Origin: a virus | Direction: 5' to 3' (one strand) | Length of the DNA stretch: 33,295 bases | Virus record (IMG/VR): IMGVR_UViG_3300020121_000025 | Coordinates: 1-33,295 of that record | Part shown: positions 4,397-19,463 of the stretch, in pieces | How positions within the stretch are numbered: position 1 is the first letter of the stretch | Layout of the letters: each line of letters begins with the position of its first letter | Made by a program: the position numbers and the translations under genes | The notes under the pieces: generated by a model | The model's input: only the letters and a program-made list of their open reading frames with translations | Database searches by the model: none | What the model was told of the DNA's origin: nothing

Positions 4397-4711
4397 TCAG
4401 TTCTGCCGGCGCATAGCCGCGATAATGCGGAGGGCCTGTTCCTGCACCTCCGGGGGCTGATCGCGAAGCAGGGCATCCGCACTGGGTCGGTCAGGGGACC
4501 TGTAGAGATCCACTACCTCGATCCCAAGCACCCAGGCAATGGCCGCCTTGGCGTCATCATCCGGCTTACGCTTGCCCGTCTCCCAACGCGAAATGGTCAC
4601 ATCGCTCGTTTCTAGGCGGTCTGCGAGCTGTTGCTGGGTAAGGCCACGGTTCTCCCGCCATTCCGCAAGGAACAACTGGACGGGCTTCCTAGGTCCAATA
4701 CGAGGGGGCAT
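4397..4711 (-). CDS. XRE-family phage repressor (CI-like)
   Basis: A 104-aa DNA-binding protein that probably maintains lysogeny. A lambda-repressor-type helix-turn-helix covers about residues 14-66: GLTQQQLADRLETSDVTISRWETGKRKP, then AIAWVLGIEVVDL. The remaining C-terminal part (PPEVQEQALRIIAAMRR) is one helix, probably for dimerisation. No S24 (LexA/CI) peptidase domain is present, so RecA-stimulated self-cleavage is not expected. The ATG at 4711 was preferred; an in-frame ATG at 4747 and a TTG at 4753 are possible and would place the start codons inside the operators. It is divergent from the Cro-like gene and flanked by matching operator clusters. Confidence 0.88.
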   Translation of the reverse strand: MPPRIGPRKPVQLFLAEWRENRGLTQQQLADRLETSDVTISRWETGKRKPDDDAKAAIAWVLGIEVVDLYRSPDRPSADALLRDQPPEVQEQALRIIAAMRRQN

Positions 4712-4724
4712 ACACACAGAGTAC

Positions 4725-4795
4725 CTACCATTGTGGATAGCTCCCATGACCAAAAAGGTAGGACGGTAGGGTTGCGTGTCCTACCGTATTGGTTT
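4725..4795. promoter_or_regulatory. Right operator cluster between the repressor and Cro genes
   Basis: The divergent interval carries three more copies of the operator motif: 4725-4739 (minus strand TATCCACAATGGTAG), 4747-4761 (TGACCAAAAAGGTAG) and 4781-4795 (minus strand AAACCAATACGGTAG). A further half-site CGGTAGG (4764-4770) forms a perfect inverted repeat with CCTACCG (4780-4786). A weak promoter for the Cro-like gene may be TTGCGT (4772-4777), 17 bases, then TAGAAG (4795-4800). That would start RNA very close to the ATG at 4808. The arrangement mirrors lambda OR with pRM and pR. Binding is inferred. Confidence 0.7.
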
Positions 4796-4807
4796 AGAAG
4801 CCAAGGC

Positions 4808-5014
4808 ATGGCTGAGAACAACCATCCGTTGGCGCGATATCGTCGTGAACATGGCCTGACCCAGGCAGCTTTGGCGAGTGAGCTGGGTGTGTGGCCGCTG
4901 ACGGTGTGGCGCTGGGAAAATGGTGAGCGCACGCCGCGCCCCAAGGACGCGAGACGGATTTCACATCACACGGGAATCTCCGTTGGAGACCTGATTGAGG
5001 CGGGGGCCGAATGA
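4808..5014 (+). CDS. Cro-like XRE transcription regulator
   Basis: A 68-aa protein made almost entirely of one helix-turn-helix domain: REHGLTQAALASELGV, then TVWRWENGERTP and a closing ISHHTGISVGDLIE. The domain aligns with the divergent repressor over its whole length (GLTQ-LA-RWE-G-R-P-GI-V-DL), so the two probably share operators, as CI and Cro do. The ATG at 4808 has only a weak AAGG upstream, and the mRNA could be nearly leaderless. The gene overlaps the next one by ATGA. It is the first gene of the rightward early operon. Confidence 0.88.
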   Translation: MAENNHPLARYRREHGLTQAALASELGVWPLTVWRWENGERTPRPKDARRISHHTGISVGDLIEAGAE

Positions 5015-15086: not shown

Positions 15087-15343
15087 ACGTCTCGAAAGAG
15101 CAGTTCAATCTTTGGAAGCACGATCCAGTTAGTAAGGCATTCCTCGCATTCCTCAGGGATAAGCGGGAATACCTGATCAATCGCGTCAGTGAAATGTGGG
15201 TTGACGGCACAGAGATTCCGCCGGCAGTTCGCGGCCAGGTCATTGAGCTTGGCGAGATAGCAGACCTCCAATTCGAGGTCTTAGAGGCATTCTACAAACC
15301 AGAGGAAGACAATGGCGCTGAACCCCAAGGTTCTGTCGGTTAG
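15083..15343 (+). CDS. Conserved-type small protein after the portal (86 aa)
   Basis: An 86-aa product with a GTG start that overlaps the portal stop (GTGA). It is helical: VSKEQFNLWKHDPVSKAFLA, then FLRDKREYLINRVSEMWVDG and VIELGEIADLQFEVLEAFY. Such small proteins between portal and scaffold are common in this phage group, but I know no function for them. It overlaps the co-chaperonin gene by 32 bases. Confidence 0.8.
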   Translation: MNVSKEQFNLWKHDPVSKAFLAFLRDKREYLINRVSEMWVDGTEIPPAVRGQVIELGEIADLQFEVLEAFYKPEEDNGAEPQGSVG

Positions 15344-15704
15344 TCGCGTCGAGTATATCCCGGCCCCGTGGTCGGGCACGAACAAGTCAGGCTGCACCCC
15401 GGTTGGGGATCGTGTCTTGATCCTGCCCGATATCGCAATGACCAAATCGCAGGGCAATATTGCCCTTCCTGATGACGTTGTGGAGCGCATGCAACTCTCG
15501 GCATCGTCCGGCGTCATTGTCGAGGTTGGCGACGACGCATTCGTCTGGAATTCAGACCGAACCCGTCCGTTTGGCGGCTACAAGCCGAAACCGGGCGATC
15601 GGGTGCATTTCGAGAAGTACGCCGGCAAGGAAATCGTCGGCGACGATGGCGCGAAGTATCGCATCTGCGATGATAAAGCCATCGGGGCGATCAGGAAATC
15701 CTAA
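15312..15704 (+). CDS. GroES-like co-chaperonin (Cpn10 fold)
   Basis: GroES caps the GroEL chamber and helps fold substrates; phages use their own versions (T4 gp31, RB49 CocO) to fold capsid proteins. This 130-aa protein has a 27-residue N-terminal extension, then the Cpn10 pattern: CTPVGDRVLILPD (residues 28-40), a mobile-loop-like KSQGNIALPDD with the GroEL-contacting tripeptide I-A-L at 50-52, SSGVIVEVGDD, KPKPGDRVHFEKYAGKEIV and a final KYRICDDKAIGAIRKS. The AGAGGAAGA site fits the ATG at 15312. Its place between portal and scaffold strongly suggests capsid-protein folding. Confidence 0.9.
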   Translation: MALNPKVLSVSRVEYIPAPWSGTNKSGCTPVGDRVLILPDIAMTKSQGNIALPDDVVERMQLSASSGVIVEVGDDAFVWNSDRTRPFGGYKPKPGDRVHFEKYAGKEIVGDDGAKYRICDDKAIGAIRKS

Positions 15705-17739: not shown

Positions 17740-18648
17740 ATGGCTACGATTACCACTGGTACGCATCCCAAAGCACTTTGGCCCGGCATCAAGGAGTGGT
17801 GGGGCCGGTCCTATTCGGAGCACCCGGAAGAGTACGTTGATCTCTTCGACAAGGAGACTTCCGACAAGGCATACGAAGAGGACGTGGAAATCACCGGCTT
17901 CGGCCTGGCTCCCGTCAAGGCGCAGGGCACCGCGATCAACTACGACGTTGAATCGCAGGGCGCGGTCACTCGTTATACGCACGTTGCGTATGCGCTTGGC
18001 TACGTCGTGACCTTCGAGGAATTGCGTGACGATCTCTACGAGGTCGTGTCGAAGCGGCGTGCGAAGCAGCTCGCCTTCTCGATGCGCCAGACCAAGGAGA
18101 ACGTCGGCGCGAACGTGTTCAACCGTGCGTTTTCGTCCAGCTATACGGGCGGCGACGGCGTGAGCATGATCAACTCGTCGCACCCGACCGTTGCCGGCAA
18201 CCAGTCGAACGTTCTGACGACTGCTGCGGATATGTCGGAAGCGGCGATCGAGGATCTGACGATCCAGATCATGCAGGCGCAGAATGCCAAGGGCCTTCGC
18301 ATCTCTCTGATGCCGCAGTCCCTGCACGTTCCGGTTCAGCTTTTCTACGAAGCTAACCGCATCCTGAAGTCGGTCCTTCAGAATGACTCGTCCAACAACG
18401 CAATCAACGTGTTGAAGGCGACGAACGTGTTCCCCAAGGGCATCAAGATGAACCACTACTTCACGTCGGCAACGGCGTGGTTCATCCGCACGAATGCTCC
18501 TGCGGGCCTGAAGATGTACGAGCGCGACGCCGTTACCTTTGACCAAGATAACGACTTTGATACGAAAAACGCCAAGGCAGCCTGCTACGAAAGATACTCA
18601 ATGGGCTGGTCTGACTGGCGCGGAGTGTTCGGGACGCCCGGGGTGTGA
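17740..18648 (+). CDS. Major capsid protein
   Basis: A 302-aa protein that should form the icosahedral head (HK97 fold). Features: an N-terminal arm ending in WGRSYSEHPEEYVDLFDKET, the E-loop/backbone region AQGTAINYDVESQGAVTRYT, the long spine helix REEL-type segment DDLYEVVSKRRAKQLAFSMR, NSSHPTVAGNQSN, an A-domain with AQNAKGLRISLMPQSLHVP and an end with WFIRTNAPAGLKMYERDAVT. A perfect AAAGGAGG site gives high expression. It follows scaffold and decoration genes and is the likely folding client of the phage co-chaperonin. Confidence 0.9.
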   Translation: MATITTGTHPKALWPGIKEWWGRSYSEHPEEYVDLFDKETSDKAYEEDVEITGFGLAPVKAQGTAINYDVESQGAVTRYTHVAYALGYVVTFEELRDDLYEVVSKRRAKQLAFSMRQTKENVGANVFNRAFSSSYTGGDGVSMINSSHPTVAGNQSNVLTTAADMSEAAIEDLTIQIMQAQNAKGLRISLMPQSLHVPVQLFYEANRILKSVLQNDSSNNAINVLKATNVFPKGIKMNHYFTSATAWFIRTNAPAGLKMYERDAVTFDQDNDFDTKNAKAACYERYSMGWSDWRGVFGTPGV

Positions 18649-18656
18649 CACTATAA

Positions 18657-18685
18657 TTGACAAATAGTACAGAGCACGGCATACT
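18657..18685 (+). promoter_or_regulatory. Promoter inside the endonuclease leader
   Basis: TTGACA (18657-18662) is a perfect -35 box. Exactly 17 bases later is CATACT (18680-18685), which matches four of six -10 positions. Transcription would start near 18691-18693. That is downstream of the 5' arm of the outer hairpin and inside the inner hairpin, so RNA from this promoter would leave the ribosome site free. Activity is inferred. Confidence 0.6.
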
Positions 18686-18722
18686 GGCTCCTAGCAATAG
18701 GAGGTTGGGATGCCGTGCTCTG
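18670..18722 (+). promoter_or_regulatory. Nested hairpin sequestering ribosome site and start codon
   Basis: CAGAGCACGGCAT (18670-18682) is perfectly complementary to ATGCCGTGCTCTG (18710-18722), a 13-bp stem that includes the AUG of the endonuclease. Inside it, CTCCTA (18688-18693) pairs with TAGGAG (18698-18703) around a GCAA loop of the GNRA type, hiding the AGGAGG ribosome site. Read-through RNA from the capsid gene should therefore not be translated for this gene. The logic is like T4 I-TevI, whose ribosome site is hidden in long transcripts. Confidence 0.8.
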
Positions 18723-19408
18723 CTTGTGGGAATGAAAAGATATTAGCTCGTGGGCTTTGCGGGGCCTGCTACACCAGATTGCGTCGCAACGGATCAGTCG
18801 CAAGAAAGTACGTAATCAACCTCGGTTCTTGTTCTGTTGACGGTTGTGGGAAAGAAGCGTTTTCCAAAAATCTCTGCCTTACGCACTACAACAAAGCTCA
18901 GCATCCAATCAGAAATACCTGGAAGCTCATAAGGAGCAGGTATGTGGGTGAATACCCTGCGGCATGGGATAGGTTTGAGAGATTTCTGGAAGATGTTGGA
19001 GAGAGGCCAACGCCAAGGCATCAGCTAAGGCGTATTGATCAAACCAAAAACTACAGCAAATCAAATATTCGATGGGTTGAGCCGGTACCAACTCCTCAGA
19101 GTATGACGAAGCAAGAGCGAGCGGTATACGGCCGCGAATGGCATCTGCGCCGTCGTTTCAAGCTTACGGGCGACGAGTTTGCTAAAATGCTAGCCGCGCA
19201 GAATGGTGTTTGCGCTATCTGCGGCGCCAAAGAAACGCATACGCACAAGAGCGGGAAGCTAAAAGAACTCTCAGTGGATCATTGCCACGATACCGGGAAG
19301 GTGCGCGGCTTATTGTGCGTCAACTGCAATCGTGGACTTGGATACTTCCAAGACGATATAGAGCGCATCAATCGCGCCATCGACTACCTGAGGAAATCTA
19401 CTACCTAA
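18710..19408 (+). CDS. Free-standing HNH homing endonuclease (Endo VII type)
   Basis: A 232-aa protein with three modules. The first is a pair of zinc ribbons, CSACGNEKILARGLCGACY (residues 3-21) and CSVDGCGKEAFSKNLCLTHY. The second is a DNA-contact module with LRRIDQTKNYSKSNIRWVEP. The third is a C-terminal recombination-endonuclease-VII domain with CAICGA, LSVDHCHDTGKVRGLLC and NCNRGLGYF, where DH-x(n)-N carries the catalysis. It sits alone between the capsid and next structural gene. Its DNA is less GC-rich than its neighbours: two 60-base lines gave 45% and 48% against 57% in the capsid gene. This suggests recent arrival. Confidence 0.92.
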   Translation: MPCSACGNEKILARGLCGACYTRLRRNGSVARKYVINLGSCSVDGCGKEAFSKNLCLTHYNKAQHPIRNTWKLIRSRYVGEYPAAWDRFERFLEDVGERPTPRHQLRRIDQTKNYSKSNIRWVEPVPTPQSMTKQERAVYGREWHLRRRFKLTGDEFAKMLAAQNGVCAICGAKETHTHKSGKLKELSVDHCHDTGKVRGLLCVNCNRGLGYFQDDIERINRAIDYLRKSTT

Positions 19409-19436: not shown

Positions 19437-19463
19437 AGCCGCCTCCGGGCGGCTTTTTCTTTG
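19437..19463 (+). terminator. Strong intrinsic terminator after the endonuclease
   Basis: AGCCGCC (19437-19443) and GGCGGCT (19448-19454) form a 7-bp GC-rich stem with a TCCG loop of the stable UNCG class, followed by TTTTTCTTT. It ends transcription of the capsid and endonuclease genes. Confidence 0.92.

Follow-up and report, generated by a model that had tools for sequence, protein, structure and literature searches.

A free-standing homing endonuclease gene lying behind the major capsid gene of the window (the whole 33,295-nt stretch of virus DNA analysed) was found to begin within a nested hairpin overlapped by a sigma70-like promoter. We regard it as highly probable that the hairpin is a lock on read-through RNA which the promoter bypasses, and this arrangement is real and very probably functional. 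In the proposed mechanism, an Endonuclease VII-type (DHHRN) homing gene would have entered the major capsid gene at its 3' end, bringing its own control region; read-through RNA from the capsid gene would fold into the nested hairpin, burying the Shine-Dalgarno sequence and the AUG and leaving the nuclease untranslated, while RNA from the sigma70-type promoter would begin within the hairpin, lack the 5' arm and be translatable. The RNA starts, the silencing of translation, the use of the host polymerase and the activity of the nuclease are all predicted, and the presumed purpose would be to prevent a DNA-cutting enzyme from being made from the strong late RNA of the capsid gene.

The nuclease gene and traces of its insertion

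The major capsid protein gene occupied nt 17740–18648 on the plus strand, as do all features described below unless stated otherwise, and ended in GTG TGA; its product matched Phage_capsid_4 (Pfam PF25209, E 4.6e-8) and was 98% and 96% identical to the capsid proteins of two relatives, L002 and L003, respectively. The next gene (nt 18710–19408) encoded a protein of 232 amino acids matching PF02945 (E 4.7e-24) and the PHROG endonuclease VII, with the nuclease motif being C-terminal (PF02945 spanned residues 145–229). Residues D190, H191, H193, R199 and N207 and the CxxC pairs were conserved in the nuclease alignments, with C168, C171, D190, H191, H193, R199, C203, C206 and N207 being invariant in alignment A2. 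A C-terminal Endonuclease VII motif, the residues D, H, H, R and N, and two CxxC pairs are the features described for DHHRN homing endonucleases of the F-CphI type (PMC6083498), and all were present here. The earlier note had called the gene HNH, which is less exact than Endonuclease VII-type. As a single query against IMG/VR, the 232-aa protein gave no match, and a distant DNA search of the phage collection returned one capsid match only, which was without the nuclease.

Elsewhere in the window, a GroES-like co-chaperonin was encoded at nt 15312–15704 within the structural operon, and groeS is annotated at a similar place in the related phage MW202785. Two open reading frames resembling helix-turn-helix regulators by eye (nt 4397–4753, minus strand, and nt 4631–5014, plus strand) overlapped head to head and possibly form a lysogeny switch. 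No open reading frame of at least 800 aa, such as might encode a T7-type polymerase, was present in this possibly incomplete contig.

The nuclease was absent from L002 and L003 in spite of their near-identical capsid proteins. At this empty site the capsid gene ended in GTC TAA CCCGCTGAAGAGCG, and the nuclease gene of the window ended in ACTACC TAA CCCGCTGAAGAGCG; at the right junction (nt 19406–19408) the TAA of the nuclease coincided with the stop codon of the empty-site capsid gene, with TAACCCGCTGAAGAGCG common to both. The shared TAA and downstream sequence indicate that the right edge of the insert is the old capsid stop codon. On the left side, third-position identity between the window and L002/L003 fell from 0.85/0.82 to 0.36/0.44 from capsid codon 264 (nt 18529) onwards, and past this codon L002 and L003 matched each other at 0.93; the tail that was replaced is thus the window's own. 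The last 39 capsid codons (120 bp, nt 18529–18648, codon 264 to the stop) had been recoded with the encoded protein nearly unchanged, and this stretch is a probable co-conversion tract, left by homing and brought along with the nuclease. The recoding could also have removed the cutting site of the nuclease. Mobility of DHHRN genes is recognized by absence of the gene from near-identical relatives and by co-conversion of flanking DNA, and this locus showed both. An intrinsic terminator at nt 19437–19461, which also follows the capsid gene in the empty-site relatives, once stood between the capsid gene and the next gene and is now 3' of the nuclease in the window, so capsid read-through has to traverse the nuclease gene.

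Hairpins, promoter and modelled RNA at the nuclease start

The outer hairpin was formed by the arms CAGAGCACGGCAT (nt 18670–18682) and ATGCCGTGCTCTG (nt 18710–18722), which were perfectly complementary over 13 bp, lay 27 nt apart and constituted the longest perfect short-range inverted repeat of the 33-kb window. The 3' arm comprised the nuclease AUG and the codons next to it, placing the start codon inside the repeat. Nested within was a second hairpin, consisting of the anti-Shine-Dalgarno arm CTCCTA (nt 18688–18693), the loop GCAA and the arm TAGGAG (nt 18698–18703), which covered the Shine-Dalgarno sequence GGAGG (nt 18700–18704; arm and Shine-Dalgarno sequence together TAGGAGG, nt 18698–18704). 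The sequence TTGACA-N17-CATACT, with the -35 element at nt 18657–18662 and the -10 element at nt 18680–18685, had the top sigma70-like score of both strands of the window in a weight matrix scan with E. coli values as weights, which may not hold for the host. The 5' arm of the outer hairpin lay within the promoter spacer and the -10 element, the CAT of CATACT being the anti-start-codon end of the arm. The leader had no match in Rfam. The 13-bp stem with its AUG, the inner hairpin over the ribosome site and the promoter had all been proposed in the earlier note, and the inverted-repeat search, the fold and the promoter scan recovered each of them at the positions proposed.

The read-through RNA folded at -82.4 kcal/mol over 201 nt (z = -4.0), a value reached by none of 200 dinucleotide shuffles, and the fold was lost in RNA starting at nt 18692 (z = +1.4). 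The modelled cost of opening the Shine-Dalgarno sequence and the AUG was 21.1 kcal/mol in the read-through RNA versus 6.1–6.2 kcal/mol in RNA starting at nt 18692 or 18693. Over the predicted transcription starts, nt 18691–18693, located 6–8 nt past the -10 hexamer, it ranged from 6.1 to 7.2 kcal/mol, and the purine at nt 18693 was as plausible a start as nt 18692, with equal opening energy. Modelling of the two RNA forms, a check put forward with the original proposal, was in line with it, the opening cost falling from 21.1 to about 6 kcal/mol. As computed, the ribosome site and the AUG are paired in the read-through RNA and the local promoter yields RNA without the 5' arm, which are the elements of I-TevI/mobE-type control.

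Leaders of capsid-linked and other nuclease genes

Relatives were collected by a capsid protein search followed by searches with nuclease alignments. The capsid-linked set comprised 62 non-identical Endonuclease VII-type genes, that of the window included, which start no more than 350 nt from the end of a capsid gene, and 116 nuclease relatives located elsewhere served as controls. A single automatic rule assigned the start codons of both groups; its choices for L087 and L102 looked wrong and were replaced manually in the promoter, swap and truncation tests but stood in the comparison of opening energies, and leaderless cases were kept in unchanged. The capsid-linked leaders differed in sequence, being too divergent to align across the set, and mostly shared the same layout.

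Identity of the nucleases was only loosely related to that of the capsids (r = 0.51), and in L299/L232/L105, L218/L087/L091 and L114/L092 capsids about 89–94% identical were followed at the same site by nucleases only 29–36% alike, which indicates repeated entry of different nucleases at the same place. Genes of P22-type coat proteins lay directly 5' of the same nuclease family in L277 (nt 632–1837), L278 (nt 230–1405) and L283 (nt 1218–2414), with strong hairpins at the nuclease starts and, in the leader of L283, TTGATG-N17-CATTCT as read by eye; the association of nuclease and capsid therefore crosses capsid families. These three were kept among the controls, which makes the comparison conservative. 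In three named phage records the Endonuclease VII genes adjoined tail or portal genes instead of standing directly behind the capsid gene, and among the genome_contigs matches only that of L162, a contig of an Opitutae metagenome bin, followed a capsid gene.

The median cost of opening the start was 16.5 kcal/mol in the 62 capsid-linked genes versus 9.3 kcal/mol in the 116 controls (p = 8e-12); an initial set of 29 loci gave a median of 17.0 kcal/mol for nuclease starts versus 8.6 for capsid starts and 7.4 for starts of the next gene. Sigma70-like promoter scores exceeded those of shuffles in the capsid-linked leaders (combined p = 7e-25) and not in the controls (p = 0.37); with leaders of common ancestry such combined values are optimistic, and it is the contrast with the controls and the swap test that carry the argument. 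A 17-bp promoter spacer was present in 45 of the 62 leaders, and in 54 the predicted RNA start fell between -36 and -10 relative to the start codon. When the RNA was cut at the predicted start, the opening cost dropped by a median of 11.7 kcal/mol in the capsid-linked genes versus 1.0 kcal/mol in the controls (p = 2e-8); with the start shifted 30 nt upstream, 15.1 kcal/mol remained in the former, leaving most of the lock intact. The promoter is thus placed where the RNA escapes the lock.

Pairing energy between the 5' and 3' halves of the capsid-linked leaders was -24.5 kcal/mol for matched halves versus -16.0 kcal/mol for halves swapped between loci (z = -16.9). A smaller excess in the controls (z = -5.8) probably arose from composition and ordinary hairpins, and the excess per locus differed between the two groups (p = 6e-7). 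In seven of eight aligned clusters, a total of 20 base pairs had both sides changed with the pair kept, a pattern suggesting that the pairing rather than the sequence of the leader is maintained. Retention of pairing in homologous leaders, another check put forward in the earlier note, was accordingly seen in dozens of leaders together with the promoter, a combination absent from the controls; this supports the claim that read-through RNA would be silent for the nuclease and RNA from the local promoter translatable.

The layout varied in detail. The -10 element lay in or at the 5' arm in L017 (TTGCAT-17-CATAGT), L035 (TTGACT-17-CATTCT), L050 (TTGACA-17-CATCCT), L085 (TTGACA-17-CATGGT) and L013 (TTGACG-17-TATACT), while in L290, L300 and L338 the 5' arm was over the -35 element instead, with the -10 element within the loop. 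In L106, L108, L137 and L238 (nt 1390, 205, 2977 and 2465, respectively) the predicted RNA start was at or beside the AUG, so that the local RNA would be leaderless, and a long read-through stem enclosed the start. In about five relatives (L089, L097, L099, L100 and L101) the lock was weak or the promoter hard to discern. The hairpin was followed by a U-run in seven of the 62 by automatic count; in leaders of this kind, such as those of L234, L241, L285, L111 and L237, the lock may at the same time serve the capsid RNA as an intrinsic terminator.

Alternative readings and comparison with known systems

Its position just past the capsid stop codon, and the U-run found in the seven relatives, would suit a hairpin that mainly terminates the capsid mRNA or protects it as a barrier to exonuclease, with cover of the nuclease start as a by-product. 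We consider this unlikely, since the remaining 55 of the 62 by the same count, the window among them, have no U-run, a separate ordinary terminator seems to follow the capsid gene ahead of the lock in L050, L067, L089 and L096, and the terminator which the window has in common with the empty site stands 3' of the nuclease; the lack of a U-run and the place of this terminator led to rejection of the hairpin as the capsid terminator of the window. Moreover, the 3' arm is consistently on the Shine-Dalgarno sequence and the start, RNA from the promoter begins past the 5' arm, and nuclease relatives elsewhere do not have this combination.

The inverted repeat might instead be a DNA operator, bound as a palindrome by the nuclease or another protein that represses the promoter. 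It does overlap the -10 element, and I-TevI of T4 represses its own promoter through an operator resembling its homing site (PMC2988022), but the sequence of the arms varies among relatives with similar nucleases, the pairing is kept by compensatory change and the 3' arm is repeatedly on the ribosome site and start, which makes an operator alone very improbable; autorepression could occur in addition to the lock. Least credible of all is a chance structure of GC-rich phage DNA beside a coincidental promoter-like match. Hairpins are common in such DNA, structured starts also occur among the controls and promoter-like matches in 9 kb were no commoner than in shuffles, but no shuffle reached the fold, the promoter is the window's top site of its kind, and the pattern recurs in dozens of leaders and is absent from the controls.

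The reading as a lock with a bypassing promoter has precedents. I-TevI of T4, the precedent correctly cited in the earlier note, is an established case of control by a hairpin in read-through RNA together with a promoter located beyond its 5' arm, and a similar arrangement has been described for I-TevII, I-TevIII, segB and Aeh1 mobE; the T4 systems use a phage middle or late promoter, and their lock holds the nuclease back until late infection (PMC2988022). As in I-TevI and mobE, a phage homing endonuclease has its ribosome site hidden in a hairpin, with a nearby promoter starting past the 5' arm. The enzymes of T4 and Aeh1 are of the GIY-YIG or HNH type, whereas that of the window is of the Endonuclease VII type; their promoters are phage middle or late ones, whereas that of the window, TTGACA-N17-CATACT, is sigma70-like with its -10 element overlapping the 5' arm, so the T4-type promoter, which characterizes the T4 members and not the control principle, is not shared; and the transcript that reads through is here that of a capsid gene. 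The timing in the window is probably opposite to that in T4. With a sigma70 promoter beneath a presumably late capsid transcript, the lock would more likely serve to cap late over-expression of the nuclease.

In the transposons IS10 and IS50, which unlike the present gene are not homing nucleases, transcripts from outside fold over the ribosome site of the transposase by means of the terminal repeat of the element, and a sigma70 promoter of their own yields translatable RNA. With respect to the enzyme, the window's nuclease resembles F-CphI of cyanophage S-PM2, the founding DHHRN homing endonuclease, in being free-standing and having a C-terminal Endonuclease VII motif with the same conserved residues; F-CphI adjoins psbA and acts together with an intron at that locus, whereas the gene of the window stands behind a capsid gene, and the main text of the paper on F-CphI never uses the word "hairpin" (PMC6083498). 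A literature search, outside which most subscription literature lay, found no paper describing a capsid-linked Endonuclease VII version.

The present system differs from T4 in its enzyme family, type of promoter, location at a capsid gene, spread and, probably, timing, while the logic of the switch was already known; by comparison of the leaders, this appears to be a separate and widespread version of it with a host-type promoter. More tentatively, and with slightly more doubt than confidence, it may be a repeatedly evolved general insulator of capsid-homing nucleases in unrelated capsid families, each with a promoter incorporated in the 5' part of the lock, which would keep the nuclease off late capsid RNA and express it from a host-type promoter in the reverse of the T4 timing; its forms would be a pure translation lock (the window), a lock plus terminator (the relatives with a U-run) and a leaderless form (L106, L108, L137 and L238). 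The unit is compact and testable (about 65 bp), a -10 element inside an anti-start arm offers a marker for finding capsid-linked homing genes, and the question is raised whether nuclease expression is early or constitutive as opposed to late. Dozens of phage lineages seem to have arrived at such a lock with unlike sequences, which suggests that excluding a selfish nuclease from read-through transcripts is commonly required and not a peculiarity of T4.
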